DNA from: Frankia sp. R82
GTDB lineage: Bacteria > Actinomycetota > Actinomycetes > Frankiales > Frankiaceae
Assembly: GCF_023716925.1 (NCBI RefSeq)
Contig: NZ_JAMQQG010000012.1
Location: 1-45,648 of the forward strand
Length of the DNA: 45,648 nt
Direction of reading: 5' to 3'
Under the pieces are notes generated by a model. That model had not been told where the DNA came from. It worked only from the letters and a program-made list of their open reading frames with translations, and ran no database searches. Shown piece by piece: positions 11,741 through 37,725 of this stretch (its first letter is position 1; each line of letters begins with the position of its first letter). The position numbers and the translations under genes were made by a program.

Positions 11741-11893
11741 CCGGGATCTCCGCCTCTCCGCCTCTCCGTTCGCTGACGACTCAGGCTACCGATCGAACAC
11801 GCGCACAGCGCGGCACAGTCCGATGTGGACGCCCGGGAGCCCAACGGCCGGCAGCCCGAACCCGGATGGACGCGCCGGCAGCCGGTGCGCGGT

Positions 11894-12367
11894 TCAGACG
11901 AGGCCGGTCACGATCGTGACGGTGCCGACGGTCAAAGCAGGTATGGGTTCGGGCCAGCGGGCGGACAGCAGCAGCCGCTGCAACTGGTACTGGATGATGC
12001 CGGCGGCCAGTCGTGCGTCGTCCAGGAACTCGGCGAGGTTACTGACATGTGCGAAGACCTGCCCGGTGGGCGACCATCGAAAGGTGATGACCAGAAGGTC
12101 TCCCGTGGCGCCGACATCGAGGAGGGCGACGCTGCCCCAAGGGCCCGCGGGAGGAGATGGCGGGGTGCTTCCGTCCATCGGCGCGTAAGCCCGCCGCCGG
12201 GTTACCTGATCAGAATCCGACGGACCTTCAGCGATCGGCTCCCGGCCCTGCACCTGATCTCCGTCAGCCGCGATCAAAGCCCGCAGATCGCGGGTGATCT
12301 CCGCCGCGACCTCCGCCATCAACGCTGCCTTCATCATCGGCCCTTCGTGTTTCGCGGCTACCGTCAC
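11894..12367 (-). CDS. Hypothetical protein coupled to a lipoprotein
   Basis: 157 residues, no family recognised. The N-terminus (AALMAEVAAEITRDLRALIAAD) is helical, a Pro/Ser-rich linker with PPSPPAGP follows at about 68-75, and the C-terminal half alternates hydrophobic residues (VALLDVGATGDLLVITFRW, LAAGIIQYQLQRLLLS, TVGTVTIVTGLV), suggesting a small alpha/beta fold. No signal peptide. GTG 12367 overlaps the stop of the preceding lipoprotein gene by four bases (GTGA), so the two are translated together and probably act together. No further function can be inferred. Confidence 0.65.
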   Translation of the reverse strand: MTVAAKHEGPMMKAALMAEVAAEITRDLRALIAADGDQVQGREPIAEGPSDSDQVTRRRAYAPMDGSTPPSPPAGPWGSVALLDVGATGDLLVITFRWSPTGQVFAHVSNLAEFLDDARLAAGIIQYQLQRLLLSARWPEPIPALTVGTVTIVTGLV

Positions 12368-13011
12368 AACGTATCGTTGACCCAGTCAGGGCATCGGTTC
12401 TCCGTAACGTAGGAGGAGTTCCGACAGTACGCGGTCACGACGCCCATCTCGTTCCTGTCCGGCGAGCCGGAGCCCGGGCCCCGTTCCTCGTAGACCTCGA
12501 CGTACTCGACCGGCCTTCCCCGCGCCCGAAACTGCTCGCCGTACAGGTAGCGGCCGTTCGGCTGTCGTATTCCGTGACTGCTGTTGAGAACGGTTGCCTC
12601 GATGGCGCCAAGATCGAGATTGTGATCCACATAGGCATGCAGATATCCGAAGCCGCTCGATCCGGCCCGCCCCTGGCGAACCCAGACACTGTGGCCCCTG
12701 CCGCCGTTGTCCTTCTGTATCGTCATGCAGGACCAGGGACTCTGAGCCCCTCGGTAGTAGGTGTTGAATGGGCAGCTGACGTTGCTGGCCGACGCAAGGG
12801 CGACCGGTGCGACCCCGAGCGCAGGAAGCGACGACGCAGTGGCACCGGAATACGGCACCCACAGTCCCACCGGCCCGGCGGACGCCGCTGCGCTCCCTCC
12901 GCTCCCGGTCACGCTCGAGCAACCGGCCATCACCAATAATGCCAGCGATGCTACCAGCAGGGCGCGGATCCGTCGTGCTCGTCCCTGCGTGGAGAGGATG
13001 ACCTGGTCCAC
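12364..13011 (-). CDS. Hypothetical exported lipoprotein
   Basis: 215 residues. A basic N-terminus (RARRIR) and hydrophobic core end in a lipobox, LLVMAGC, with lipid-attached Cys31, so the mature protein should sit on the outer face of the membrane. The mature part has four more cysteines (SCPFNTYY, WSCMTIQ, YCRNSS, RCPDW), probably two disulfides, and aromatic-rich segments (GFGYLHAYVDHNLDLGA, GRYLYGEQFRARG). I do not recognise the family. GTG 13011 is preceded by AAAGGAG at seven bases. It is the first gene of a coupled pair with the hypothetical gene ending at 11894. Confidence 0.75.
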   Translation of the reverse strand: MDQVILSTQGRARRIRALLVASLALLVMAGCSSVTGSGGSAAASAGPVGLWVPYSGATASSLPALGVAPVALASASNVSCPFNTYYRGAQSPWSCMTIQKDNGGRGHSVWVRQGRAGSSGFGYLHAYVDHNLDLGAIEATVLNSSHGIRQPNGRYLYGEQFRARGRPVEYVEVYEERGPGSGSPDRNEMGVVTAYCRNSSYVTENRCPDWVNDTL

Positions 13012-20872: not shown

Positions 20873-23494
20873 ATGAGCGACGCGCGAATGGTTTCCGTCG
20901 GCGTCGAGGAGGAGTTTCACATCCTCGATCTCAACACCCGTCAGCTTGTGCCTCGGGCGGAGGAAATACTCGCCCGCCTCGATGGAGACTCCTTCTCCCC
21001 GGAACTGCTCAAATCTGTCGTCGAGACGAACAGCCGGCCGACGCTGGATCTGCTGGCGTTGCGGACGAACCTGCTCGATCTGCGCCGCCGTCTGGCCGAG
21101 GCGGCCGGGGAGCTGGGGCTCGGGCCGGCGGCATCGGGCACTGTGCCGATTCTCGACATGGACGCGCTCGACGTCTCCCGCGACGACCGCTACGAGCAGA
21201 TGACCGAGGACTACCAGATCGTCGCCCGCGAGCAGCTGATCTGTGGCGCCCAGGTGCACGTCGACGTCGCCGACCGTGATCTGGCGATGGCCGTGGTGGC
21301 CTGGACCGCGCCGTGGCTGCCGATGCTGCTGGCGCTGTCGGCCAGTTCGCCGTACTGGCTCGGCGCCGACAGCGGGTACGCGAGCATGCGCACGCTGGTC
21401 TGGCAGCGCTGGCCGACCGCGGGGGTGGCCGGGTCGTTTCGCACCGCCGCCGAGTACGACCAGCTCATCGCCGACCTGATCAAGTCCGGGGTGATCAGCG
21501 ACCCGGGCATGGTCTACTTCGACGTCCGCCCGTCGGCCCACCTGCCGACCGTGGAGCTGCGGATCTGCGACGCCTGCCCGGACGTCGACAACGTCATCCT
21601 CATCGCCGGCCTGTTCCGTGCGCTGGTCTGCCGGGCGGTGGAGGAGATCGCGGCGGGCGGCCAGGCACCGCCGCCGCGCGCCGAGTTGCTGCGCGCCGCG
21701 ACCTGGCGGGCGGCCCGGTCGGGGCTGGAGGGCGACCTCGTCGACATTCTCGGCGCGGGGCCGGGGCCGGTACCAGCACGGGCGATGCTGCGCCGGCTGC
21801 TGGAGGAGGTTCGTCCGCAGCTGGAGCAGTACGACGACTGGGAGCTCATCGACAACCTCGCCGAGCAGGCCGCCGGGCGCGGCAGCTCCGCGCAGCGCCA
21901 GCGCCGTGCGTTCGCCCGCCGTGGGCTGCTCACCGACGTCGCCGACCTGATCCTGGCCGAGACCCGGGATGTGCCGCCGGCCGGCGCCGTGATCGGCGTG
22001 GCTCCGGCGGTGTCGGCCCCCGACCAGATCGCGCCGACGCTGCTCGAGCGCTACCAGCCCACCGGCTATGACGAGGTCGTCGACGACCACGGTGCGGTGC
22101 GACCCCAGTACCGCGCGGTGATGCGCACCCTGGAACGGCTCGGTCCGGACGTCCTCGACGAACGGGTCGGCACCCGCGAGGCCGAGCAGCACGACCGCGG
22201 CATCGTCTTCAAGGTCGCCGGGGACGAGCGCAGCCGGCCGTTCCCGTTCGACATCGTGCCGCGGATCATCGCCGCGCAGGACTGGGCGGTGCTGCGGTCG
22301 GGCCTGACCCAGCGGGTCCGGGCGTTGGAGGCGTTCCTGCGTGACGTCTACGGTGAGCGGGCGGCCGTCGCCGACGGTGTGGTGCCACCCTGGGTTGTCA
22401 ACGACGCACCCGGGCTGCGCCACGGCGGACGGGCGGTGGCCGACGAGGCGATCCGCGTGACCACCGCCGGGATCGACCTGGTCCGCGGCGCGGACGGCGG
22501 CTGGCTGGTGCTCGAGGACAACCTGCGGGTGCCCTCCGGGATCGCCTACGCCCTGGAGGGACGTCGGCTCGCCGAGTCGGTGCTGCCCGAACTCGGGCCG
22601 CCCAGCGGCATCCTGCGCCTGGACGGCATCCCGGCGCTGTTGCACGAGGCGCTGCTGGCCGCCGCCCCGGCCCGTCCCGGCGGCGGGAGCAGCACCGGTG
22701 GCAGCCGGGCCAGCGGCGGCGGTGAGCCGGTGGTGGCGGTGCTCTCCGGCGGGCCGGCTGACTCGGCCTACTTCGAGCACACCATGCTCGCCGAGCAGAT
22801 GGGGGTGGCGCTGGTCGAACCGGGCGAGCTGCTCGTCGACGACGACGGCGCGCACCGCGTCGACGGCGCCACCCGGCACCGCGTGGACGTGCTCTACCGG
22901 CGCATCGACGAGGACGAACTGTTCAACGCGGTCGGCGCGGACGGCGCGCCGCTGGGCCCGGCGTTGCTGCGGGCGATGCGGGCCGGGCTGGTCAGTGTCG
23001 CCAACGCGCCCGGCAACGGGGTCGGCGACGACAAGGTCACCTACGCCTATGTGCCGCGGATGGTCACCTACTACCTGGGTGAGCAGCCGGTACTCGACGA
23101 TGTGCCCACCTACGTCTGCGGCGACCCGGAGCAGTGCGAACACGTGCTGGCCAACCTCGACCAGCTGGTCGTCAAGCCGGTGGACGGTTTCGGCGGCGCG
23201 GGTGTGCTGATCGGCCCGCACGCCGAGCCGTACCAGCTCACCGAGGCGCGCGAACAGATCCTGGCCGACCCGCGACGCTGGATCGGTCAGGAGGTGGTGG
23301 CCCTGTCCACCCATCCCACCTGGCATGACAGCCAGCTCCAGCCCTGTGCGGTGGATCTGCGGGCGTTCGTCTACGTCGGGGCCGAACCGGTGGTGGTTCC
23401 CGCGGCGCTGTCCCGGGTCGCCCCGCCCGGCAGCCTCATCGTCAACTCCTCGCGCGGCGGCGGCTCGAAGGACACCTGGATCCCTCGCCGCTGA
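20873..23494 (+). CDS. GCS2-type carboxylate-amine ligase fused to circularly permuted ATP-grasp
   Basis: 873 residues in two catalytic domains. Residues 5-370 are a YbdK/GCS2-type glutamate-cysteine-ligase-like domain (GVEEEFHILD, ETNSRPTL, CGAQVHVDV, YFDVRPSAHLPTVELRICDA), which in relatives joins an amino acid carboxylate to an amine using ATP. Residues 395-870 are a complete circularly permuted type 2 ATP-grasp domain (YDEVVDDHG, PFPFDIVPRII, VLEDNLRVPSGIAYAL, LVVKPVDGFGGAGVLIG, SSRGGGSKDTW). Similar fusions are annotated as putative glutamate-cysteine ligase 2 in Frankia. Mycothiol organisms do not need glutathione, so another dipeptide product is more likely. It is followed after 250 bases by an NAGGN-amidotransferase-like gene on the same strand, which suggests it makes the gamma- or alpha-linked glutamyl/glutaminyl backbone that enzyme then amidates (inference). 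A Gly/Ser linker lies at about 603-617. Confidence 0.9.
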   Translation: MSDARMVSVGVEEEFHILDLNTRQLVPRAEEILARLDGDSFSPELLKSVVETNSRPTLDLLALRTNLLDLRRRLAEAAGELGLGPAASGTVPILDMDALDVSRDDRYEQMTEDYQIVAREQLICGAQVHVDVADRDLAMAVVAWTAPWLPMLLALSASSPYWLGADSGYASMRTLVWQRWPTAGVAGSFRTAAEYDQLIADLIKSGVISDPGMVYFDVRPSAHLPTVELRICDACPDVDNVILIAGLFRALVCRAVEEIAAGGQAPPPRAELLRAATWRAARSGLEGDLVDILGAGPGPVPARAMLRRLLEEVRPQLEQYDDWELIDNLAEQAAGRGSSAQRQRRAFARRGLLTDVADLILAETRDVPPAGAVIGVAPAVSAPDQIAPTLLERYQPTGYDEVVDDHGAVRPQYRAVMRTLERLGPDVLDERVGTREAEQHDRGIVFKVAGDERSRPFPFDIVPRIIAAQDWAVLRSGLTQRVRALEAFLRDVYGERAAVADGVVPPWVVNDAPGLRHGGRAVADEAIRVTTAGIDLVRGADGGWLVLEDNLRVPSGIAYALEGRRLAESVLPELGPPSGILRLDGIPALLHEALLAAAPARPGGGSSTGGSRASGGGEPVVAVLSGGPADSAYFEHTMLAEQMGVALVEPGELLVDDDGAHRVDGATRHRVDVLYRRIDEDELFNAVGADGAPLGPALLRAMRAGLVSVANAPGNGVGDDKVTYAYVPRMVTYYLGEQPVLDDVPTYVCGDPEQCEHVLANLDQLVVKPVDGFGGAGVLIGPHAEPYQLTEAREQILADPRRWIGQEVVALSTHPTWHDSQLQPCAVDLRAFVYVGAEPVVVPAALSRVAPPGSLIVNSSRGGGSKDTWIPRR

Positions 23495-23708
23495 CGGAGC
23501 CGCGGTCGAAGCCGTGTTTCCGAACTGTCGGTGACCGGCTCGGCCGCGCTGGCCCGGTGGTGCCGACGGTGCGCCGCCGGGCCGCTACGGCCTGCGCGGA
23601 CGTGGACCGTGCGTGACCGCAACCGGGCCGACACGACTGTGAAACGTCCGGCATCGATCGTGTGGAGACGACGAAGTCTCTCGACGCCGGGCAGGTACGT
23701 CCGGAGAA

Positions 23709-23726
23709 GGGATCATGCCTGATCCC
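23709..23726 (+). promoter_or_regulatory. Small hairpin in the leader of the amidotransferase gene
   Basis: GGGATCA (23709-23715) and TGATCCC (23720-23726) form a perfect 7-bp stem with a four-base loop, ending 20 bases before the start codon and just before the likely ribosome-binding sequence. It could affect translation or mark a processing site. Confidence 0.35.
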
Positions 23727-23746
23727 AGTAACCCGACGGGAGCGCT

Positions 23747-25531
23747 ATGTGTGGGCTTAGTGGCGAGCTGAGGTTCGACGGCCGGGCAGCCGACGTCGAC
23801 GCCGTGGTTCGGATGACGGCGACGATGGTGGCGCGCGGTCCGGACGGCGTCGGGATCTGGGCGTCCGGGCCGGTGGCGTTCGGCCACCGCCGGCTGAGGA
23901 TCATCGATCTGTCGGAGCGGGGCGCACAGCCCATGGTCGACAGCGAACTGGGCCTCACGACCGCGTTCAACGGGTGCATCTACAACTACCAGCAGCTGCG
24001 CGACGAACTGACCGCCGCCGGCTACCGGTTCTTCTCCACCTCCGACACCGAGGTGATCGGCAAGGCCTACCACCGGTGGGGCATCCACTGCGTCGATCAC
24101 TTCGCCGGCATGTTCGCCTTCGCCGTCGCCGAACGGGACACCGGCCGGCTCGTGCTCGCCCGCGACCGGCTCGGCATCAAGCCGCTCTACTACGCCGCGG
24201 ACGCCGAGCGGCTGCGGTTCGCGTCGACGCTGCCGGCGCTGTTGGCCGGCGGCGGGATCAGCTCCGACCTGGACCTCGTGGCCCTGCACCACTACTTCTC
24301 GTTCCACTCGGTGGTGCCGGCGCCGCACACCATCCTCGCCGGGGTGCGCAAGCTGCCCGCAGCGACCGTGCGGGTCGTCGAACCGGACGGTCAGTACACC
24401 GACGAGCTGTACTGGAGCCCGTCGTTCACCCGCGACGACGCCCACGCCGGCTGGGATGCCGGTGACTGGCAGGACGCGATCGCCGCCCGGCTGCGCACCG
24501 CCGTACGCCGGCGGATGGTCGCCGACGTGCCGGTGGGTGTGCTGCTGTCCGGTGGCCTGGACTCGAGCCTGATCGTCGCGCTGCTCGCCGAGGCCGGGCA
24601 GACGGGCCTGTCCACCTTCAGCGTCGGGTTCGAGGCGGCCGGCGGCGAGTCCGGCGACGAGTTCGCCTACTCGGACATCATCGCCGACCATTTCGGCACC
24701 GATCACCATCAGATCCGGGTGCCCGGCAATCGGCTGCTGCCCGCCGTCGACGCCGCCATCGCCGCGATGAGCGAGCCGATGGTCAGCCACGACTGCGTGG
24801 CGTTCTACCTGCTCTCGCAGGAGGTGTCCCGCCACGTCAAGGTGGTGCAGTCCGGACAGGGCGCCGACGAGGTGTTCGCCGGCTACTCCTGGTACCCGCC
24901 GCTGGCCGACGTCCCTCGTGACCAGGCCGTCGATGCCTACCTGTCGGTGTTCGCCGACCGGCCGCACCGGGACCTTCCGGGCATGGTGGAGTCGTCCTAC
25001 CTGCTGGAGCGGGACGCCAGCCGTGACTTCGTCGCCGCCCACTTCGCCCATCCCGGGGCGGCGACGTCCGTGGACGCGGCGCTGCGCATCGACTCGGCCG
25101 TGATGCTCATCGACGACCCGGTGAAGCGGGTCGACAACATGACGATGGCCGCCGGGCTCGAGGCCCGCACCCCGTTCCTCGACCACGAGCTCGTCGAGCT
25201 CGCCGCCGCCTGCCCGCCCGAGCTCAAACTCGCCTCCGGCGGCAAGGGCGTGCTCAAGGACATCGGCCGCCCGCTGATGCCGGTGGACGTCATCGACCGA
25301 CCCAAGGGCTACTTCCCGGTACCGGCGATCCGCCATCTGCACGGCCCGTTCCTCGACCGGGTCCGCGAGGCCCTGTTCGATCCGGCGGCCAAGGCCCGCG
25401 GCCTGTACCGGCCGTCCTGGGTGCAGTCGATGCTCGCCGCACCCAACGACAACCGCACCACCCTCGGGGCAAACGCCCTCTGGCAGGCTGCGCTGCTCGA
25501 GATGTGGCTGCAGACTCATGGCCTGACCTGA
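23747..25531 (+). CDS. N-acetylglutaminylglutamine amidotransferase-like asparagine synthase
   Basis: 594-residue glutamine-dependent amidotransferase. Residues 2-205 are the class II glutaminase (Cys2 after Met removal; MCGLSGELRFDG, LGHRRL-type segment, FNGCIYNYQQLRDEL, ARDRLGIKPLYY). Residues 240-590 are the synthetase with ATP P-loop LSGGLDSSL (Ser268-Ser274) and QGADEVFAGYSWYPP. Several stretches (SGELRFDG, DLSERGAQPMVDSELGLT, FHSVVPAPHTIL) are typical of the family that amidates N-acetylglutaminylglutamine, the osmolyte made by AsnO and Ngg in Sinorhizobium and Pseudomonas, and not of plain AsnB. Length fits. The usual partner, an Ngg GNAT/ATP-grasp fusion, is missing; a GCS2/ATP-grasp ligase and a separate GNAT flank it instead. 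The product may be NAGGN or a related amidated dipeptide. Confidence 0.85.
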   Translation: MCGLSGELRFDGRAADVDAVVRMTATMVARGPDGVGIWASGPVAFGHRRLRIIDLSERGAQPMVDSELGLTTAFNGCIYNYQQLRDELTAAGYRFFSTSDTEVIGKAYHRWGIHCVDHFAGMFAFAVAERDTGRLVLARDRLGIKPLYYAADAERLRFASTLPALLAGGGISSDLDLVALHHYFSFHSVVPAPHTILAGVRKLPAATVRVVEPDGQYTDELYWSPSFTRDDAHAGWDAGDWQDAIAARLRTAVRRRMVADVPVGVLLSGGLDSSLIVALLAEAGQTGLSTFSVGFEAAGGESGDEFAYSDIIADHFGTDHHQIRVPGNRLLPAVDAAIAAMSEPMVSHDCVAFYLLSQEVSRHVKVVQSGQGADEVFAGYSWYPPLADVPRDQAVDAYLSVFADRPHRDLPGMVESSYLLERDASRDFVAAHFAHPGAATSVDAALRIDSAVMLIDDPVKRVDNMTMAAGLEARTPFLDHELVELAAACPPELKLASGGKGVLKDIGRPLMPVDVIDRPKGYFPVPAIRHLHGPFLDRVREALFDPAAKARGLYRPSWVQSMLAAPNDNRTTLGANALWQAALLEMWLQTHGLT

Positions 25532-25585
25532 CCGACCCGACCGGCCAAGCCGAGCCGAGCCGACCCGATGCCGTAGGGAGTTGAG

Positions 25586-27832
25586 ATGAACCGAGCCTCC
25601 TGCCCCGAGGACCTGACCGGGTCGACGCAGGCCCTGGCCCGCGACGTGCCGGCGCAGCGTCCCGCCGTCCTGGACGTGCTGGCTCCGCTGCCGACGGACC
25701 TCCCGAACGCCTGGGTGACGGCGGTCGGCGTGCGCGCACCGGCCCTGGCCGCCGACGGTCGGCTCGCCTACATCGCGGACGGACCCACCGGCCCGCGCCT
25801 GTGGGTCCGCACCATGGCCGCGCCCGCCGGAGCCGGGAACGTCGCCGGGGATGTCGACGAGGTCGGGAACATCGATGGTGTCGGGAACATCGATGGTGTC
25901 GGGGACGTCGGCGCCGACGGTCACGGGTACGGGGTGGCCGTCGACACCGGGCCGGGGCAGGTTCGGGCCGCGATGTGGTCACCGGGCGGGGAGCTGCTGG
26001 CCGTGCAGGTCGCGCCGGGCGGTGGGGAGCTCACCGAGGTGCGGATCGTCGATCCGGCGTCCGGGCTCGGCGCGGGTGGCCGTCCCGGCGGGGCGTGGCG
26101 GCTCGCCGGCGGCGACGGATGGGCCGCCGCCCCGGCGCGGTGGACCGCCGATGGCCAGGCGCTGCTGGTCACCGAGTCCGACCGGACCGACCCGTCCGGA
26201 CGCACCCTGGCGGTGCTGATCACCCTGGACGGACGGCGGGTCGTGCTCGCCGAGGGCATCGCCCTGCAGATCCTCGACGCCGTCGCCATCGCGGACGGCC
26301 ACCGACTGCTGCTGCGGGAGGGACCGCGGGGGGTCCGCCGGGCCCTGGTCGTCGATGCCCGGCTCACCACCGCGTCCGAGGAGGGCACCACCTACGCCTC
26401 CTGGGAGCTGCCGGGCGGGCGGGCGACCGTGCTGTCCGGCCGCTTCGTCGCCGGCGGGCACCGTGCCCTGCTCGTCACCGACCTCGGCGGTCGTGAGCGC
26501 GCCGCACTGCTCGACGTGGCGGTGGACGGCCCGGGCCCCGCCCGGGTGCTCGCCGCCCGCCCGGACGCCGATGTCGAACGCATCGCCCTGCTCGACACGC
26601 CCACCGGACGGGTGGCCGCCCCTCGTCCGGAACTGGCCGGGGTGGAACTGGTCGACCCGGGTCTGGGCGGGATGGCCCGGGCGGAGGCGGAGCTGATCGG
26701 GACGGGGCTGGGCGCCGCCGGCCTGGGACGGGCCGTCGTCGTGTGGAACGTGGCGGGACGCAGCGAGCTCACCGGAGTGGACCTGGCCACCGGCGAGGCG
26801 CATCCGCTGCCCACGCCGCCGCGGGCGGTGATCACCGCGCTGCTGGGACGAGCCGGCGGACGGGAGCTCGTGCTCGCCGTCGAGGACGCCACCGTCCCCG
26901 CCGAGCTCTGGACGTGCCACCTCAGCACCGACTCGGGAGATGCCGACTCGGGGGATGCGCGGTGGGGCGCCGTCCACCGATGTCTGGTGTCGCGCGCACC
27001 CCGGCAGCCGGGCGCACTCGTCGAACCGGAACTGCGCACCCTGGCCGCCCATGACGGGCTCACCCTGTCGGGTTTCTGGTACCGTCCGCCGGCGCCGCCC
27101 GGGCCGATGCCGACCCTGATCTACCTGCACGGCGGGCCCGAAGCGCAGGAACGGCCCACGTTCAACCCGCTGATCCACGCGTTGAACGCCCGGGGGATCG
27201 CGGTGTTCGCGGCCAACGTGCGCGGCTCCACCGGCTACGGCCGCTCCTTCGAGGAGGCCGACCATCTGCACCGCCGCTTCGACGGTATCGAGGACGTCGC
27301 GAGCTGCGTGCGTGACCTCGTCTCCGCCGGCCTCGCCGAGGCGGACCACATCGGGGTCGCCGGCCGCTCCTACGGCGGCTATCTGACGCTGGCCGCGCTC
27401 GTCGGCTTCCCGGAGCTGTTCCGCGTCGGCGTCGACATCTGCGGCATGGTCGACCTCGAGACGTTCTACCAGCACACCGAGCCGTGGATCGCGGCCAGCG
27501 CGGTCACCAAGTACGGCGACCCGCAGACCGACCCGGCGCTGCTGCGGGCGCTGTCCCCGCTGCACCGGATGAGCCGGCTCGCCGCACCCCTGTTGGTCGT
27601 GCACGGCGAGAACGACACGAACGTCCCGGTCGTCGAGGCCGAGCAGACCATCGCCGCCGCCCAGGCCCGCGGGGTGCCGTGTCGCTACCTGCTGTTCCCC
27701 GACGAGGGCCACGAGGTGGTCGGGCTCGCCGGCCGGCTGCGGTTCGTCCGCGAGACCGTCACCTGGCTCGCCGACCAGCTGCTGCCCGACCGACTCCCCG
27801 CCACCCACCGGGAGGACGAGTCGGTGGCCTAG
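25586..27832 (+). CDS. S9-family prolyl-oligopeptidase-like peptidase
   Basis: 748-residue serine peptidase: beta-propeller (about 45-470) and C-terminal alpha/beta hydrolase with YLHGGPEAQERPTFNP, GRSYGGYLTLAAL (Ser595), ENDTNVP (Asp677) and EGHEV (His709), a full triad. Family members cleave short peptides or acyl-peptides, usually in the cytoplasm; no signal peptide is present. ATG 25586 has GGGAG at eight bases and is 54 bases after the amidotransferase stop, so they are probably co-transcribed. The canonical NAGGN cluster of Proteobacteria carries an M42-family peptidase; this could be its functional substitute, recycling the dipeptide (inference). Residues 90-110 hold an 18-bp tandem repeat (VGNIDGVGNIDG) in a surface loop of the propeller. 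Confidence 0.9.
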   Translation: MNRASCPEDLTGSTQALARDVPAQRPAVLDVLAPLPTDLPNAWVTAVGVRAPALAADGRLAYIADGPTGPRLWVRTMAAPAGAGNVAGDVDEVGNIDGVGNIDGVGDVGADGHGYGVAVDTGPGQVRAAMWSPGGELLAVQVAPGGGELTEVRIVDPASGLGAGGRPGGAWRLAGGDGWAAAPARWTADGQALLVTESDRTDPSGRTLAVLITLDGRRVVLAEGIALQILDAVAIADGHRLLLREGPRGVRRALVVDARLTTASEEGTTYASWELPGGRATVLSGRFVAGGHRALLVTDLGGRERAALLDVAVDGPGPARVLAARPDADVERIALLDTPTGRVAAPRPELAGVELVDPGLGGMARAEAELIGTGLGAAGLGRAVVVWNVAGRSELTGVDLATGEAHPLPTPPRAVITALLGRAGGRELVLAVEDATVPAELWTCHLSTDSGDADSGDARWGAVHRCLVSRAPRQPGALVEPELRTLAAHDGLTLSGFWYRPPAPPGPMPTLIYLHGGPEAQERPTFNPLIHALNARGIAVFAANVRGSTGYGRSFEEADHLHRRFDGIEDVASCVRDLVSAGLAEADHIGVAGRSYGGYLTLAALVGFPELFRVGVDICGMVDLETFYQHTEPWIAASAVTKYGDPQTDPALLRALSPLHRMSRLAAPLLVVHGENDTNVPVVEAEQTIAAAQARGVPCRYLLFPDEGHEVVGLAGRLRFVRETVTWLADQLLPDRLPATHREDESVA

Positions 27833-27980
27833 CCGCCGGCCGGCGCAGGGGCATGATCGGGCCGTATGGCCAGGTCGACCCTCTCTCGGACCCGCTCCGG
27901 CTCCCCTCTGGCTGGGCGGAGCCGATCCGTTACCCCGGGTGGGCGAAGCATCCACGGACGGTGCTGACACAATACGTATC

Positions 27981-28406
27981 GTGAAAATCGAGGAGTTGGA
28001 GGCGGACCGGACCTGGCTGGCGTTCGACCCCATGCGCCAGCTGCGACCCCACCTGACCTCGACGGGGTTCGTCCGCCTCGTCAACGAGGTGCAGCGCCCC
28101 GAGGGCTACCGGCTGATCGGGTCCTGGGACGGCGAGCTCAGCCGGGTCGCCGCGGCGCTCGGCTTCCGTCAGGTGACGTCGCTGGCCACCGGACGGCACC
28201 TGGTCGTCGACGACCTGACGACCATCCTCGTCGCCCGCGGTCGCGGCCACGCCACCCGCCTGCTGGCCTGGGCCGACCGGGAGGCCCGCCGTCTCGGCTG
28301 CGAGCACATCCAGCTCGGCGTCGACACCCATCGCCACGAGGCCCACCGTCTCGCCCTGCGCACCGGCTACGCGATCTCCACCTTCGGCCTCACCCGCCGC
28401 CTGTGA
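27981..28406 (+). CDS. GNAT-family N-acetyltransferase
   Basis: 141 residues with the acetyl-CoA-binding motif A, TILVARGRGHATRLLAWADR (pyrophosphate loop RGRGHA at 86-91), motif B EHIQLGVDTHRHEAHRLALRTGYAI, and an N-terminal half typical of small amino-acid acetyltransferases. GTG 27981 is chosen because it begins directly before the conserved N-terminus. The bases upstream (ATACGTATC) look like a -10 region and no ribosome-binding site is seen, so this may be a leaderless transcript with its own promoter. It lies 150 bases behind the peptidase on the same strand. In Ngg the GNAT domain is fused to the ligase; a stand-alone copy next to the ligase and amidotransferase could supply the acetylation step (inference). 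Confidence 0.85.
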   Translation: MKIEELEADRTWLAFDPMRQLRPHLTSTGFVRLVNEVQRPEGYRLIGSWDGELSRVAAALGFRQVTSLATGRHLVVDDLTTILVARGRGHATRLLAWADREARRLGCEHIQLGVDTHRHEAHRLALRTGYAISTFGLTRRL

Positions 28407-32115: not shown

Positions 32116-35100
32116 TCAGCCCCCTCCAGCCGCGACGTGCTTTTCCAGCAGGTTCGCCATCTGGAAGCGCAGTGCCGCCAGGTCCGCACCGGCGCAGGCC
32201 TGGTGCAGGGCCAGCCGCAGATGCTCGTCGGACGTGCCGCCGGTGAGTGAGCGCACCGCAAGGGCGAGGCCGCTGGCGGCAAGATTGCCGAGGCTGACGG
32301 CCTCAAGGCCGGGCGCACAGTGCGGGCTGTGCAGCATCTCGTCGAACTGAGCGGCGATGGTGGTGCCAGTCAGCGACAGGCCACGGTGGCGCCATTCCCC
32401 TGTGAGGGGATGTGGCTGGTCGGCGCCTGGTCGGCGCCGGGCCTCGGTCAGGGCACGCCGGACGTCCTGGTAGCGGTACGGACCGGCGGTCCAACGCCGA
32501 GTGTCAGCGCCGATGCCCTCACTGGTGCCGGAGGCTGCGACGTCGACGAGCATGCAGTGCAGAGTGTCGGCGAGACTGCGAGCGAACTCGTCCAGGTCGA
32601 CATAAGGGCGCAGCAGGAGCGAACGGGCCGTCGCCGCCCGGTCGACGGCATGGGCGAGCAGGCAGTCCAGGGTGCGCGGGGGCTGGGCGAGTAGTTTCTC
32701 GCGCAGCGCCGGGGTCGGCGTGGGCGGTGCCTGGCCGAGGAGGTGGGCCAGGCCGATGACCTGGTGTGCGGCGACGGCTTCGACCCAGACGACCAGCAGG
32801 GGGTCGGCGGCCAGGTGGGACGCGTCGTTGACCTGGCCGAGTGTGCAGGCGCCGTGGGTGGTGCAGTCGGTGCCGCACAGCAGGCTGCGCCGGCCTGTCA
32901 GCGGGATGGCGTCGTGGCGGGCGCCCTGCACCGACTCGCGGTGCCCACCGGGCAGCATCCGGGTGAGGATCGGGCGGTCCATGCCGTCCACGGCGATCGC
33001 GGCCACGCCCGGCGGCAGGGCGACGACGAGCTCCGACTGGTCGTCGCGCAGGTTCATCGTGGCGCCGACGGCCTCGCGGTCCTCGGCCGACGGCAGCCGG
33101 TGCATCACCTTCAGCGCGGTGTTCTTCAGGACGTCCGGGAGGATCTTCGACGGGATCTGCTCGACGACGAGCACCCCCTCGCCGTAGGCGCGGATCTCGG
33201 CGAGCAGAGAGGCGAACAGCTCGACGGCAGCCGCGGCCGGACCGTCGGTGACGTTCTTGAGCAGCCGGTGGGCCTCCTCGACGACGAGGACGTGACGCAG
33301 CTCGTCGAGACCGGAACTGCCGTGGCACACCCGCAGGTGCTCGACGATGCGGATCAGGATCGCGCCGAGCAGGAACGCCTTGTCCTGATCGCTGGTGATG
33401 TCCTCGAGTTCGACCACGACGTTGCGGGTCAGCAGCGCGCCGATGTCGAGGGGATGGCCGCCCTCGAAGAACCGGCCGGGGGTGCCCTCGCGCAGCGAGC
33501 CGATCCGCACGTCGACGAACCCGCGCACGTCCGCGGTCACCTCGGCGCCGTAACCGATGGTCTCGACCACCCGGGTGGCGGTGCGCTGCAGATCGCCGAG
33601 GGTCGGGTAGCGGGGGCGGGCAGGTACCAGCGGCTCGTCGTCGCGGAACCGGGGTCGGTGCTCGGGGCGCATCCGGCCGGCGACGAGATCCCAGCCGGCG
33701 TCGGTGTAGCAGACGGTCAGCGCCCTGGCCAGCACCTGCGGAAACGGCTCGTGGGCCTCGAACGCGGCCAGGAACAGGGCCCGGACCAGGTCGATGTGGC
33801 TCTGCAGCGGGAAACCCGGCTCGGGTTCGAGCGGGTTGAGCCCGGCCGGCGGGGCATCGAGGCGTCCCGGCCGGATGACGAGAACCTCGGCGTGGCCGGC
33901 GAGTCGACCGGCCATCCGGGCGTACTCGGCCTTGGCCGGCTCCAGCACCAGCCATGGCACTGGATCCGCGGCGCGGGCCAGCGACTCCAGCAGCGAGCGG
34001 ACCGTCTGCGACTTGCCCGAACCGGTCGCCCCGCAGACGAACCCGTGCCGGTTCAGCGTGGCCCTGGGTACCGGGAGCACACCCGCCGGTGACCAGCCGG
34101 CATCCAGCACCTGGCCGAGCACGACCGCGCCGCCGACCGCATCGTGGCGTGCGACGTCGTCCGATCTGTCTCCGTGGTGAAGGGTCGGCGCCGGTGCCAT
34201 GGGCGGCCGCATTCCCAGGCCGCCTTCCGGCGTGACGTCGAAGGTGTGGGCGGTGACCAGGGTGATGCCGGGCAGCTCCCGGCGGGGCGGACGGGCCAGC
34301 GCCGCGAGCAGCTCGCCCCCGGCGCGGAACGGGAAGCGTGGCTCGATGCCGGCGTTCGCCGGTCCACCGACCGGAGGATTCTGCGGTCGTCCCGGCGGGT
34401 CGCCCGGCACCGAGGACTCGTGAGCATGCGGAGTGCCAGGAGTGCCCGGGGCGCCTGGGGCGCCAGGGTGGCCGAAGGCAGGACGGGACGGCGCCGGCCG
34501 TACGTTGATCCGCCCGCCGCCGACGCCATCGCCGGGTCCCGCACCGGGCAGGTACTCGGCGCCGATGCCGGAGCCGGGATGTCCGTGAGGGCCATAACCG
34601 GAACCGGGGTGGCTGGTGGGGTCGTCCGGACCGGAGGCGAGCATGCGCGGCGGCTCGGCCGCGCCCGCCCGCGATGCAGACGGCCCCAGTGGCGTGCCCA
34701 GGGCCTCGGCCAGCCCGGACGGGCGGGAGCGTTGCGGGGTGAGCAGGTAGGGCAGATCGTCGAGATCGCCCGCACCGCACAGCAGGGCGGCGGTCAACCG
34801 GGTCTCGGTGGCCGTTGGCGCGCCGACGAGCACCCGCACGTCCCACAGGCCGGTGGCGGCGGAGCGAGTGAGTTCCCGGTAGCGGGCCTCGGCGCGTTCC
34901 AGTTCGACCCGGGCGTGCCCGTCCTGCTCGCGTCGACGCAGGAACGGGATCATGCGCAGCAGGTCGCCGCGCTCGGCGTCGACGACGCCGGTGGCCACGG
35001 GCTGCGCGACCACCAGCCAGGCGAAGGCGCCGGGCAGATGGGCGGCGAAGTCATCGAACGAGCCGTGCCGGCTCGGGCCGCCACCGTCACGGCCGTTGCT

Positions 35101-35610
35101 GCCAGGACGATCCGCCACCCACAGGGCGTCCGCCGTGCCGGCGCAGCGCAGCCAGCTGGGAAAGCCGTTCAGCGCCGCGACGACCTCGGCGCCGTCCACC
35201 GCGACCCCCGTACTGCCCGGCGGATACAGCACCGGTACCGGCACGCCTGACGAGCTGTCCGCAGTCGGGGCGTGGCAGGCCGCGGTCGGGTCGGCCGCTG
35301 TCGTGTCGGCCGGCGTCGTGTCGGCCGGCGTCGTGTGGGCTGCCGTCGTGCGGGCTGCCGTCGTGCGGGCCGGTGGGAACGTGGGACTTCCACCGACGAG
35401 GACCCGCAGGTGCGGATCTCCGGGCACCCGGAGCCAGACGACCGCGATCGCGCTCGGCTCCGCGCCGGGAGGATCGGCATCGCAGGTCAGGTCGGCGTGA
35501 GCCGCGATGAGTGCGGCGAACAGCTGGGCCGGTGCGGGGTCGGGCACGTCCGTCGCGGCGGGTGGCCGGGGGACGGCGAGCAGCCGGTGGAACTGGAATC
35601 TGGCCAGCAC
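32116..35610 (-). CDS. HerA/TraG-like P-loop ATPase
   Basis: 1164-residue ATPase of the HerA-FtsK superfamily. Walker A GATGSGKSQ (about 527-535) and Walker B HVLVVEEAHRLL (about 772-783) are intact; LVLEPAKAEYARM and LVVEQIPSKILPDVLKNT between and after are typical of the HerA/TraG branch that drives DNA or protein translocation. The 500-residue N-terminus is a large non-ATPase domain with a 15-bp minisatellite (TTPADTTPADTTAAD, about 85-110) and a Gly/Pro-rich linker. A Cys cluster, LLCGTDCTTHGACTLGQ, follows the ATPase core. GTG 35610 starts 12 bases after the stop of the membrane partner and the gene ends 6 bases before the toxin, so the three are one operon. I infer a motor that exports the toxin; a DNA-processing role is the alternative. 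Confidence 0.85.
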   Translation of the reverse strand: MLARFQFHRLLAVPRPPAATDVPDPAPAQLFAALIAAHADLTCDADPPGAEPSAIAVVWLRVPGDPHLRVLVGGSPTFPPARTTAARTTAAHTTPADTTPADTTAADPTAACHAPTADSSSGVPVPVLYPPGSTGVAVDGAEVVAALNGFPSWLRCAGTADALWVADRPGSNGRDGGGPSRHGSFDDFAAHLPGAFAWLVVAQPVATGVVDAERGDLLRMIPFLRRREQDGHARVELERAEARYRELTRSAATGLWDVRVLVGAPTATETRLTAALLCGAGDLDDLPYLLTPQRSRPSGLAEALGTPLGPSASRAGAAEPPRMLASGPDDPTSHPGSGYGPHGHPGSGIGAEYLPGAGPGDGVGGGRINVRPAPSRPAFGHPGAPGAPGTPGTPHAHESSVPGDPPGRPQNPPVGGPANAGIEPRFPFRAGGELLAALARPPRRELPGITLVTAHTFDVTPEGGLGMRPPMAPAPTLHHGDRSDDVARHDAVGGAVVLGQVLDAGWSPAGVLPVPRATLNRHGFVCGATGSGKSQTVRSLLESLARAADPVPWLVLEPAKAEYARMAGRLAGHAEVLVIRPGRLDAPPAGLNPLEPEPGFPLQSHIDLVRALFLAAFEAHEPFPQVLARALTVCYTDAGWDLVAGRMRPEHRPRFRDDEPLVPARPRYPTLGDLQRTATRVVETIGYGAEVTADVRGFVDVRIGSLREGTPGRFFEGGHPLDIGALLTRNVVVELEDITSDQDKAFLLGAILIRIVEHLRVCHGSSGLDELRHVLVVEEAHRLLKNVTDGPAAAAVELFASLLAEIRAYGEGVLVVEQIPSKILPDVLKNTALKVMHRLPSAEDREAVGATMNLRDDQSELVVALPPGVAAIAVDGMDRPILTRMLPGGHRESVQGARHDAIPLTGRRSLLCGTDCTTHGACTLGQVNDASHLAADPLLVVWVEAVAAHQVIGLAHLLGQAPPTPTPALREKLLAQPPRTLDCLLAHAVDRAATARSLLLRPYVDLDEFARSLADTLHCMLVDVAASGTSEGIGADTRRWTAGPYRYQDVRRALTEARRRPGADQPHPLTGEWRHRGLSLTGTTIAAQFDEMLHSPHCAPGLEAVSLGNLAASGLALAVRSLTGGTSDEHLRLALHQACAGADLAALRFQMANLLEKHVAAGGG

Positions 35611-35622
35611 GTCAGGCCCGCG

Positions 35623-37725
35623 CTACCGCTGACCGGGCTGGCGGTACTGCTGATAGGGATAGCCGCCGTTGCCCTGCCCGCCCTGCGGATACTGCTGGCC
35701 CGCCGTACCGGGATACGGGTAGGGCGGCGCCTGATGGGTGGGCTGCGGGGCGGCGATCTGCTGCGTGGCGGTGGTGCCGCCCTGGGTCAGGCTGCCCGGG
35801 TCCCGGGAGTGTGGCACGGCGGTGAAGTCCCGCGTCGTGTCGGCGACCCCTGGCAGCAGGACGAGCCCCGGGTTGCAGTCGCCGGGGCGCACGCGCCCCG
35901 GTCCGGCGTCCGTCCCGACCAGGATGAAGGCGGTGGTCGCCAGGCTCTGCAGCGTTGTCGGCTCGACGGCGTAGTCCTTCTCCCGCTGCAGGGTCGTGCC
36001 GAGGTTCTGGCTGACGCTGTTGGACACGTTGACGGTGTTCGTCCACGACGACGAGTGCGATGTGGTGGTCGAACGGTTCCAGCTGTCGCCGCTGCTGCGC
36101 CCACCCACACCGATCGAGCTCTGGCCACCGGTTCCCTCGGTGTACGAGGTGCCGTCCTGCTCCCCGTAGCTGTTCGCGAAGCCCTCGGTGAAGCTGTTGC
36201 CGACCTGGTTGGTCACCTGCGAGAGAACGAAACGGAAGCCCTTGCCGATGTGCTCGGCAGCGGTCGCGGCCTCCCGGGGATTGCCCAGCCGCATGAAGAT
36301 GGCGGCACTGTGACCGGTGCCGATGAGCTTCTCCGCGTCGTCGCTGAGGCTCTTGAACATCAGGATCAGCCGGACCCTGGCCGCCTCGGCCTGCTGGGCC
36401 AACGTGGTCAGCGTTTCCCGGCCGAGATGGTCGGCGCCGGCGATGATCACGACGTCGGAGCTCGCGCCCCGCAGGTCGGCGTCGTTGCGCAGCCGGTGCA
36501 GCAGGAGCTGGACGAGAACCCGGTCGACCAGCAGCTTGCGTCGTCCGGAACTGTCCCGCCCCGCACTCGTGGTCGACAGCACCCGCAGGCCGCCGCGCGG
36601 CCACCAGTCCGCCGCTGTCCCGGTCGCGGCGGTCGTGGCATGCTCTGCGGGCTCGGCGCCGGAAAGTATCTCCAGTTCGGTGCGCAGGAAGCTGATCTGC
36701 TCCGCGGTCCGTTCCCGCTGCCCGAGATCGTGCATCCGCTGCTGCAACGCGTCGATCTCGTAGGCGTCGAACACACCCTCGTGGATCGCGGAACTCTGGT
36801 TGTCGAGGATGCGCAGCGCCGCGGCGAGCCGGACAAAGCTCAGCGGGGCGTGGATCGAGGACGTCACGACCCGCAGGATGTTGAAGTCGATGGCCCGCAG
36901 GCCCGGGTCGCCCCCACCTCGACGGTCGGTGTCGAAGGCGTCGGCGAGCAGCGCGGCGACCTCGCGGGGCTCACGGCCCACCAGCAGACCGAGCCGTTCC
37001 AGGCTGGCCGGCAGCTCCCGGACCTCGACCGGGAGCTGGCGGCCAGCGGGCAGGTGGGCATCGTTGGCGAGCATCACCAGGCCCGCCCCGACGCCGAGCT
37101 CGGACAGGTCGAGCAGCAGTATCCCCGCGCCACTGCCGAGCAGCGACGCGCCTCCCGTCGCCAGAATGCTGGTCCAGCCGGCGCCGGTCCCACCGAAGAC
37201 GTCGACCCGCGCGGGCGTCTGGAGATCGAGCGGGTAGAAGTCCATCGCCGCGGCAACCCGGTGCCGCTCGGCCTCGTCATGCTGGTGGACGCGTTGCTGC
37301 CAGGCCACGTAGGCGCCCTGGAACTCCTGCTCGCGCTGGACGAGCGCCGCCTCGTAGGCGGCGGTGTACTGCTTGATCTGCCGACTGATCGAGGTCAGTG
37401 GCACGAAGTACCAGGCGAGCAGGCCCAGACCGATGACCAGGATGAACAGGCCGCCGGTCGGCGACCCCGCCAGCGATCCCAGCCCGGAGAGCACGAGCAG
37501 GCCGCCCACGATCGGCTTCCAGATCCGTCTGGTCAGGTACTGCCGGCGGAACTCGAGCCCGCGCAGGTCCGGTGGCGGCACCGGGAACCGGGAGGGCGGC
37601 TGGTATGCCTCCGGATGCGGCACCGGCGGATGTGCGGGCGCGAACTCCCAGCCCCAACGTTCGACCGGGCTGAAGATCCGTGCGACCAGCGTTCTGTTCA
37701 GCGCGTCCGCTTTTGGCGTCGTCAT
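35623..37725 (-). CDS. Membrane protein with a degenerate HerA/TraG-like nucleotide-binding fold
   Basis: 700 residues. Two membrane spans at about 72-115 (VGGLLVLSGLGSLAG, GGLFILVIGLGLLAWYFV), then a coiled segment (QIKQYTAAYEAALVQREQEF) and a cytoplasmic domain shaped like a TraG/VirB-type ATPase but with broken motifs: the Walker A position reads FGGTGAGWTS, with Trp184 in place of Lys, and the Walker B-like strand is DVVIIAGADHLG. A Ser/Thr/Gly-rich stretch (about 515-565) and a Pro/Gln/Tyr/Gly tail end the protein. ATG 37725 lies just before the first conserved part, with GGGTGAG upstream. It is first in a four-gene operon with the HerA ATPase, the deaminase toxin and its immunity gene. 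I infer a membrane anchor or pore partner of the ATPase. Family name not known to me. Confidence 0.78.
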   Translation of the reverse strand: MTTPKADALNRTLVARIFSPVERWGWEFAPAHPPVPHPEAYQPPSRFPVPPPDLRGLEFRRQYLTRRIWKPIVGGLLVLSGLGSLAGSPTGGLFILVIGLGLLAWYFVPLTSISRQIKQYTAAYEAALVQREQEFQGAYVAWQQRVHQHDEAERHRVAAAMDFYPLDLQTPARVDVFGGTGAGWTSILATGGASLLGSGAGILLLDLSELGVGAGLVMLANDAHLPAGRQLPVEVRELPASLERLGLLVGREPREVAALLADAFDTDRRGGGDPGLRAIDFNILRVVTSSIHAPLSFVRLAAALRILDNQSSAIHEGVFDAYEIDALQQRMHDLGQRERTAEQISFLRTELEILSGAEPAEHATTAATGTAADWWPRGGLRVLSTTSAGRDSSGRRKLLVDRVLVQLLLHRLRNDADLRGASSDVVIIAGADHLGRETLTTLAQQAEAARVRLILMFKSLSDDAEKLIGTGHSAAIFMRLGNPREAATAAEHIGKGFRFVLSQVTNQVGNSFTEGFANSYGEQDGTSYTEGTGGQSSIGVGGRSSGDSWNRSTTTSHSSSWTNTVNVSNSVSQNLGTTLQREKDYAVEPTTLQSLATTAFILVGTDAGPGRVRPGDCNPGLVLLPGVADTTRDFTAVPHSRDPGSLTQGGTTATQQIAAPQPTHQAPPYPYPGTAGQQYPQGGQGNGGYPYQQYRQPGQR

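Follow-up and report, generated by a model that had tools for sequence, protein, structure and literature searches.

An AsnO locus in Frankia with a GCS2-type ligase and an S9 peptidase: a candidate non-orthologous version of the NAGGN pathway in actinobacteria

Introduction

Sagot (2010) is said to have described a 'trio' for the compatible solute N-acetylglutaminylglutamine amide (NAGGN), namely TIGR03104 (AsnO), TIGR03103 (Ngg) and an M42 peptidase. Canonically, Ngg both acetylates glutamine and condenses it with another glutamine, and AsnO amidates (PMC8070244; articles are cited here by their PubMed Central, PMC, identifiers). What, then, accompanies AsnO in an actinobacterium that has no Ngg? 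We addressed this question at a locus of Frankia sp. R82, in a stretch of 45,648 nucleotides (positions 1 to 45,648 of contig NZ_JAMQQG010000012.1; hereafter the window), where asnO stands between a gene for a two-domain ligase and a gene for an S9 peptidase. On balance, and judging from sequence comparisons, we favour the reading that the locus is a non-orthologous version of the NAGGN pathway in which the ligase and peptidase were exchanged and AsnO was kept.

Results

AsnO lies in a four-gene locus without Ngg

AsnO of the window scored 994 bits on TIGR03104, the 'N-acetylglutaminylglutamine amidotransferase' model (cut-off 570.1), as the single match over that cut-off in the host genome, a 6.9-Mb draft, and is 91% identical to AsnO of Frankia sp. 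AgB32 (L041). This agrees with an earlier note on this DNA, made from the sequence alone, which had placed the amidotransferase in the AsnO subfamily. The best TIGR03103 match in the same genome reached 27.6 bits, against a cut-off of 569. Upstream of AsnO, residues 9–285 of the ligase match GCS2 (Pfam, 180.9 bits, cut-off 21) and residues 463–850 match CP_ATPgrasp_2 (411.9 bits, cut-off 32), so that the fusion of GCS2 to a circularly permuted (CP) ATP-grasp proposed in that note is confirmed. Its identification of the peptidase as S9 holds as well: the S9 domain scored 151 bits, and the window contains no match to the Azospirillum M42 protein. A free GNAT acetyltransferase follows, and all four genes are present on the plus strand, as the note had read them (Table 1).

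Table 1. Coordinates of the features of the locus in the window
Feature	Position	Strand	Size and basis
Fused ligase, GCS2 + circularly permuted type 2 ATP-grasp	20873–23494	+	873 amino acids (aa); Pfam, AlphaFold model
GCS2 domain (glutamate-cysteine ligase family 2) of the ligase	20897–21727	+	Pfam; GhExE signature GVEEE at residues 10–14
Circularly permuted ATP-grasp domain of the ligase, glutathione-synthetase-like fold	22061–23488	+	model residues 397–872 on 3n6x
AsnO, class II glutamine amidotransferase + asparagine-synthase domain	23747–25531	+	594 aa; TIGR03104
S9 peptidase, acylaminoacyl-peptidase-like	25586–27832	+	748 aa; PF00326, 151 bits, cut-off 22.6
Free GNAT N-acetyltransferase	27939–28406	+	PF00583, 38.3 bits, cut-off 20.7; GTG start at 27939 or 27981

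The ligase and AsnO genes are separated by 252 bp, and those for AsnO and S9 by 54 bp. The gap between S9 and GNAT is 106 or 148 bp, depending on a GNAT start of which we are unsure: 27939 is favoured by relatives, whose alignments begin at residue 1–11, and 27981 by coding potential.

Ngg and the GCS2-type ligase were not seen together beside AsnO

We determined how AsnO is accompanied in a phylum sample of 396 Actinomycetota genomes, the less biased of our counts, in which AsnO was over the cut-off in 46. A TIGR03103 match lies directly downstream of AsnO in 32 of these genomes (30 over the cut-off, two cut or split), and GCS2 and/or CP ATP-grasp lies within 400 bp upstream in 13; a single genome (G298) has neither beside AsnO. 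No GCS2 or CP was seen upstream of AsnO in the 32 Ngg-type genomes, over at least 1.5 kb for 29 and with three at contig ends, and 14 of the 46 lacked a TIGR03103 match at E 1e-30.

Among the Frankiaceae, AsnO was over the cut-off in 33 of 35 genomes, and a TIGR03103 match at E 1e-30 was found in none of the 35; the actinobacterial variant without canonical Ngg that the earlier note had envisaged is thus real. In 31/33, the gene immediately before AsnO, on the same strand, encodes the ligase, which argues that their adjacency is more than chance. The two exceptions are a 63% complete genome with no ligase match (G410) and one with just a 69-residue CP-like piece upstream of AsnO (G408). In the former (locus L179), an M42 gene lies on the opposite strand of the 6-kb contig that carries AsnO, with no ligase or Ngg match between them. 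The earlier note had named separation of ligase and amidotransferase in most genomes as fatal to its proposal; the two adjoin in these 31/33 Frankiaceae, and GCS2 and/or CP adjoins AsnO in 13/14 Ngg-less genomes of the phylum sample.

A second set, the best 80 of 587 AsnO relatives, leans for that reason towards the S9 type. These 80 named loci comprise 33 with a fused ligase, 13 with GCS2 alone, one with a split ligase (Rubrobacteraceae), three with CP downstream of S9 (Modestobacter, Klenkia), 20 with Ngg and 10 with no ligase match in the flanking DNA, several of these on short contigs. Those with CP downstream of S9 are Geodermatophilaceae loci (L083, L084, L085; order AsnO–S9–CP, ~13.7–15.3 kb) without a linked GCS2; the two Modestobacter among them have, in addition, a canonical Ngg that is unlinked. 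In two Planobispora and in Yinghuangia, no ligase stands beside AsnO in the flanking DNA and a 55–57% identical fused ligase is encoded elsewhere in the genome. Upstream genes of 621–622 aa in Planobispora and Ca. M. methanotrophicum were considered as further ligases and rejected, being an oxidoreductase-like fusion and a GlmS-type enzyme. Both locus types occur in Micromonospora, with Ngg in L076, L080 and L086 and the fusion in L066, L070, L073 and L075.

Adding four plasmid loci and the window gave 85 loci, 63 non-Ngg and 22 Ngg. S9 lies near AsnO in 56/63 non-Ngg loci versus 0/22 Ngg loci, and M42 in 0/63 versus 7/22. Many loci consist of exactly ligase–AsnO–S9 with nothing else contiguous, and the recurrent unit is these three genes.

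Several loci deviate from these patterns. Two Kocuria loci (L105, L116) carry AsnO without a ligase, S9 or Ngg match within 10 kb on either side, and their genomes gave no TIGR03103 match. Micromonospora noduli (G453), which has an AsnO with fused ligase (L070), also encodes a second AsnO over the cut-off (L206, 2652–5559; 901 bits), immediately followed, on the opposite strand, by a divergent GCS2 (38%); in Micromonospora foliorum (L075), a similar divergent GCS2 lies directly downstream of AsnO on the opposite strand (11812–12942, minus), where relatives have S9. On a contig labelled Nevskia (Pseudomonadota; L078), AsnO, GCS2 and CP all fall inside the Mycobacterium branch, and this is probably a mis-binned contig of a metagenome-assembled genome (MAG). 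Genes of a single sequence cluster recur near both AsnO types, downstream of S9 in L045, L046, L050, L053 and L056 and near the Ngg loci L092, L107, L110 and L114; the two scanned members (L045, L107) are Ser/Thr protein kinases.

AsnO is conserved across the two locus types

Comparison of 47 Ngg-linked with 63 S9-clade AsnOs showed 226 of 228 conserved columns (90% in both types) to be identical. A second comparison used the 59 columns that are AsnO-specific in Ngg types relative to 19 other amidotransferases of the phylum (19 of 20 controls; L181, with no recognisable start, was omitted). At the 90% level, 39 of these columns persist in the S9 clade, including 32 of the 44 in the synthetase domain, and S347, H348, F353, Q371 and K460 are present in 63/63 members of that clade. 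In the opposite direction, 41 columns are specific to the S9 clade, and Ngg types share 37 of these. As a control, the mycobacterial Ngg type keeps 57/60 columns of other Ngg types, with 60/103 in reverse, and the Rubrobacteraceae-form AsnO keeps 55/59 AsnO-specific columns. By these counts the S9-clade AsnO is conserved, yet it has diverged further than one of the two controls.

These results bear on whether the amidotransferase is an ordinary asparagine synthetase whose neighbours are incidental. It also passes the general asparagine synthase model TIGR01536 (399 bits, cut-off 267), which no other protein in the host genome does, so that AsnO could also make asparagine. An ordinary AsnB, which the earlier note had named as refuting its proposal, is favoured by the lack of a second TIGR01536 match and disfavoured by the retained AsnO-specific residues. 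Given the score of 994 bits on TIGR03104, the five residues kept throughout the S9 clade and the linkage to GCS2 and/or CP in Frankiaceae and Ngg-less genomes alike, we regard an ordinary asparagine synthetase as very improbable.

A different reading is that AsnO and the ligase were recruited to a new acceptor, in an operon for an amidated product of another kind, a secondary metabolite or a peptide tag. It would suit the incomplete retention of AsnO-specific columns (39/59, below one of the two Ngg controls), and we know of no substrate for CP_ATPgrasp_2 proteins. Clustering of neighbours, however, revealed no tailoring, transport or carrier gene that recurs across non-Ngg loci, many of which are three genes alone, and the near-identity of the shared conserved columns also speaks against it; we consider this reading improbable.

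In a quick AsnO tree, Ngg-type and GCS2-type AsnOs fell on two sides, with four Rubrobacteraceae-type rows on the Ngg side. A single-clade tree of non-Ngg AsnOs was not rejected and scored better (p-AU 0.683), and we do not claim two independent switches to GCS2. In the CP tree, the CP of the four Rubrobacteraceae-type rows grouped with five paralogues. One of these loci (L079) has separate GCS2, CP and AsnO genes and the other three have CP alone within 1.5 kb; the AsnO protein of L079 is identical to that of G130, and the two may represent one species counted in both sets.

Orphan Ngg occurs with S9-type AsnO

Sixty named loci lack an adjacent Ngg; for 50 of them, leaving aside ten on MAG contigs, we searched the rest of the genome for Ngg. 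Full-length Ngg over the cut-off and unlinked to AsnO was found in 4/50: Ca. Mycobacterium methanotrophicum, Mycobacterium sp. 1164966.3 and two Modestobacter. Each of these genomes has a single AsnO over the cut-off, in an S9-type locus, and no AsnO piece was found in the 8–10 kb examined near the orphan Ngg. Of the 156 columns that do not vary among 19 canonical Ngg, these orphan Ngg retain 149–153. In Ca. Mycobacterium methanotrophicum, AsnO and Ngg share a 4.7-Mb contig titled complete genome; the fused ligase carried by sister mycobacterial loci was not found in the genome search. The plain reading of an orphan Ngg in a genome whose sole AsnO is of the S9 type is that this AsnO uses the Ngg product. 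These natural swaps are our best hint that the product may be NAGGN or a near relative.

The S9 peptidase resembles acylaminoacyl peptidases, and the linked GNAT family was seen in Frankiaceae only

The best Protein Data Bank matches of the S9 peptidase by sequence are an amino acyl peptidase (5l8s) and an acylamino-acid-releasing enzyme (2qzp/1ve6). Residues S595, D677 and H709, which we take to be the catalytic triad of the S9 family, are invariant across 17 aligned sequences. No obvious signal peptide was seen by eye, and the enzyme is probably cytoplasmic.

Of the 33 Frankiaceae with AsnO, 22 have a close relative of the GNAT no more than 5 kb downstream of it (on the same strand in 21) and four have one on another contig; the remaining seven have none beside AsnO, four of them with weaker matches elsewhere and three with none. 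By genus, the GNAT is near AsnO on the same strand in 8/13 genomes of the window's own genus (1 other strand, 3 other contigs, 1 none), in 6/6 of g241 and in 7/8 of g243. In six genomes of g243, a sister genus, it directly follows AsnO at 93–310 bp with no room for S9, which indicates that the GNAT linkage is to AsnO. Compared with an Ngg protein, the Frankiaceae GNAT cluster (P0004) showed no significant similarity.

Frankia-type GNAT relatives stand beside AsnO in 4/63 non-Ngg loci, all Frankiaceae. The contiguous same-strand neighbours in the 63 loci number 82, of which 4 are this GNAT; among the 78 others, 51 were Pfam-scanned, the remaining 27 being 84–120 aa or >360 aa. The scan yielded one GNAT, in Curtobacterium (L106, 14991–15902, plus strand): a 304-aa FR47/Acetyltransf_1 protein encoded by the second gene after S9 in the same-strand run, outside the P0004 cluster, and a candidate acetyltransferase outside Frankiaceae. 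The GNAT is thus not a general part of the unit, its family being seen beside AsnO in part of Frankiaceae only. Both the four-gene set described in the earlier note and the gene order that it suggested checking in Frankia and relatives accordingly survive in part: the full order was read in the window, L041 and L044, and the adjacency of ligase and AsnO extends well beyond these, with the GNAT as a member in part of Frankiaceae only.

The ligase resembles a glutathione-making pair within one chain

The AlphaFold model of the ligase (mean pLDDT, a per-residue confidence score, 90.1; pTM, a whole-model score, 0.64) was compared with known structures. The N half matched the YbdK-type carboxylate-amine ligases NP459575 and YbdK (Z 41.2 and 40.7), and further a plant glutamate-cysteine ligase (GCL; Z 34.9). 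The best match of the C half was Mfla_0391 (3n6x; Z 41.2, 41% identity), followed by homoglutathione and human glutathione synthetases (Z 26.9 each) and glutathionylspermidine synthetase (Z ~23). As modelled, the whole ligase resembles a glutathione-making pair within one chain. The N half combines the fold of GCS2 carboxylate-amine ligases with their GhExE motif (described in PMC2588565), and E12, E13 and E14 are invariant across 40 aligned sequences. On the model for EgtA, the ergothioneine gamma-Glu-Cys ligase (TIGR03444), the ligase scored 17.1 bits, below the cut-off of 370.8; its similarity to an Ngg protein was confined to a short ATP-grasp stretch (E 0.013), with no further significant similarity.

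Known relatives share single features of this chain. YbdK/COG2170 carboxylate-amine ligases (1r8g, 1tt4) have the fold of its N half and the GhExE motif, whereas here that half is usually fused to CP ATP-grasp and linked to AsnO. Mfla_0391, a CP_ATPgrasp_2 protein, corresponds to the C half but is a separate protein. The bifunctional glutathione synthetases 3ln6 and 3ln7, presumably of the GshF type, likewise join gamma-glutamyl-ligase-like and ATP-grasp halves in one chain (N half Z 25); they differ in that the ligase here is of GCS2 rather than GCS1 type and its ATP-grasp is circularly permuted. By the family labels as we take them, that half is nearer to eukaryotic glutathione synthetase and glutathionylspermidine synthetase.

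The two halves differ in how widely they are kept. In the CP half, 92 columns are identical in all, or all but one, of 31 fusions, and by this measure the half, where present, is under strong constraint. In the GCS2 half, 75 columns are the same in the 31 fusions and 9 stand-alone forms, with no position consistently different between the two groups. A whole-genome search for GCS2 and CP ligases covered 42 chosen genomes, with up to 22 candidates scored in each. Stand-alone GCS2 lies beside AsnO in 17 genomes (13 named, 4 from the phylum sample), including Streptomyces, Nonomuraea and Microbispora, and 16 of the 17 had no CP match at E 1e-20, the single exception (G460) having one at 44%. The stand-alone Streptomyces GCS2 is sister to the Yinghuangia fusion in the GCS2 tree, and those of Microbispora and Nonomuraea fall inside a Streptosporangiaceae branch that includes fusions; on these placements, CP was probably lost at least twice. 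Both halves look, from their conservation, like working enzymes, GCS2 being the one most often kept. The CP half looks dispensable, and GCS2, as the half retained in Streptomyces, is probably the core ligase. Since GCS2 persists without CP in many genomes, a strict two-step scheme is not general, and the suggestion in the earlier note that the two-domain ligase performs two successive condensations is weakened.

The fold of the ligase raises the alternative of a glutathione-like route, in which GCS2 would make a gamma-glutamyl dipeptide such as gamma-Glu-Gln, CP ATP-grasp where present would add a further residue or amine, and AsnO would amidate the end, with no acetyl cap. For carboxylate-amine ligases of the GCS2 superfamily, the group usually activated is the gamma-carboxylate of glutamate (PMC2588565). 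The modelled halves fold like gamma-glutamylcysteine ligase (YbdK, plant GCL) and glutathione synthetase (human, homoglutathione), GCS2 alone persists in Streptomyces, only one linked GNAT turned up outside Frankiaceae among the 51 neighbours scanned, and AsnO might accept gamma-Glu-Gln, which is also an N-acyl glutamine. The pairing of orphan Ngg with S9-type AsnO argues otherwise, as do the GNAT linkage in 22/33 Frankiaceae and the S9 peptidase, whose nearest relatives, by name, act on acylated peptides; this relatedness, together with the invariant S595, D677 and H709, would suit an N-blocked alpha-dipeptide better than a gamma-glutamyl peptide. We hold the glutathione-like route to be an unlikely but serious alternative. 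Rather doubtful, in our estimate, is its extension in which the GCS2–CP fusion is a two-step, glutathione-synthetase-like ligase that with AsnO makes a gamma-glutamyl peptide amide serving actinobacteria under stress. Were NAGGN and such an amide interchangeable, Ngg and the fusion could replace each other; to our knowledge, no gamma-glutamyl peptide amide is a natural solute.

Neighbouring genes in the window

Further downstream, on the minus strand, the window encodes a 1164-aa HerA/FtsK-like ATPase (32116–35610), whose best PADLOC match is mad8 (62 bits), and an adjoining 700-aa protein without any Pfam or PADLOC match (35623–37725). They are possibly an uncharacterised defence or DNA-processing pair.

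Discussion

On the observed gene content, linkage, absence of Ngg, AsnO conservation and retained motifs, we propose the following scheme for a NAGGN-type pathway. A GCS2 ligase, usually fused to CP ATP-grasp, would replace canonical Ngg (GNAT plus ATP-grasp), and an acylaminoacyl-type S9 enzyme would replace the M42 peptidase. Glutamine would be N-acetylated by the linked GNAT in Frankia and by some other enzyme elsewhere; the ligase, with ATP, would join N-acetylglutamine to a second glutamine; and AsnO, drawing nitrogen from glutamine, would convert the terminal carboxylate into an amide, so that NAGGN or a closely related compound results. Once the stress is over, the blocked dipeptide may be cleaved by the S9 enzyme. 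We prefer this reading because the 994 bits are scored on a TIGR03104 equivalog model and 226/228 shared columns are identical, because the phylum sample divides into genomes with Ngg downstream of AsnO (32/46) and genomes with GCS2 and/or CP upstream (13/46), because four of 50 genomes combine an orphan Ngg with an S9-type AsnO, because S9 and M42 partition between the locus types and S9 is nearest to acylamino-acid-releasing enzymes, and because the GNAT directly follows AsnO in six g243 genomes. It also draws on the identification of NAGGN, by nuclear magnetic resonance and mass spectrometry, in an actinobacterium, Micromonospora provocatoris, though that organism is said to carry asnO and ngg (PMC8146288). 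As Micromonospora includes both locus types, this NAGGN does not settle the GCS2 type.

Several points weigh against a NAGGN-type pathway. GCS2-type ligases usually activate a gamma-carboxylate, and a gamma-linked rather than alpha-linked peptide would be expected from them. The S9 clade keeps 39/59 AsnO-specific columns (32/44 in the synthetase domain), a smaller share than in one Ngg control (57/60) but no smaller than in its reverse (60/103), and this change argues in part against an identical acceptor, so that some change of acceptor is possible. The two-sided AsnO tree means that the partition of Ngg and GCS2 may rest on a single event. The source of the acetyl group outside Frankiaceae is not accounted for by gene linkage, one GNAT having emerged from the 51 of 78 neighbours scanned, and orphan Ngg is present in just 4/50 genomes. 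A measured product for a GCS2-type locus was not found in the open-licence PMC literature.

Iyer's 2009 survey of amidoligases is said to cover ATP-grasp and GCS2 gene neighbourhoods, and may already mention the GCS2–AsnO context. A GCS2–CP ligase for NAGGN is named in no title or abstract start that we found in open-licence PMC, and the excerpt of PMC10979467 contains both terms, used apart and not for such a ligase. A divergent NAGGN cluster has already been published for Frankia. Casuarina Frankia have an asnO–ngg cluster with a 'dipeptidase' between asnO and an 'Ngg' <15% identical to other Ngg, and their AsnO is >60% identical to that of other species (PMC5563000). This cluster shares the asnO–peptidase order and is probably the same locus in other Frankia; its 'Ngg' would, by position, be the GNAT. 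It differs in that the excerpt of PMC5563000 does not mention a GCS2–CP ligase upstream, and among osmolyte transcripts that excerpt names trehalose, glutamate and threonine synthase genes, not asnO. Two F. alni genes described as NAGGN genes, FRAAL1888 and FRAAL2171, were up by 2.2 and 1.5 in polyethylene glycol (PMC5768760); they could not be matched to the present locus, and we do not use them as evidence. NAGGN clusters are called conserved in Micromonospora (PMC11537254, PMC12915310).

Compared with the AsnO–Ngg–M42 pathway, the locus has an orthologous AsnO and keeps ligase and often peptidase in one operon-like unit; it differs in having GCS2 with or without CP ATP-grasp upstream where the other has Ngg downstream, S9 for M42, and a GNAT that is free or unlinked. 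The variant is widespread in actinobacteria and probably works like the AsnO–Ngg system, of which it is not a member if Ngg defines membership. AsnO is annotated as a NAGGN enzyme in many actinobacteria, though a sizeable fraction of them (14/46 AsnO genomes of the phylum sample) lacks the enzyme that supplies its substrate. The present analysis names the likely replacement of Ngg, defines a minimal three-gene unit and corrects an apparent published Ngg assignment in Frankia, and the natural swaps make the question testable. If the NAGGN-type reading is true, it would also provide a substrate for a set of GCS2 and CP_ATPgrasp_2 proteins.

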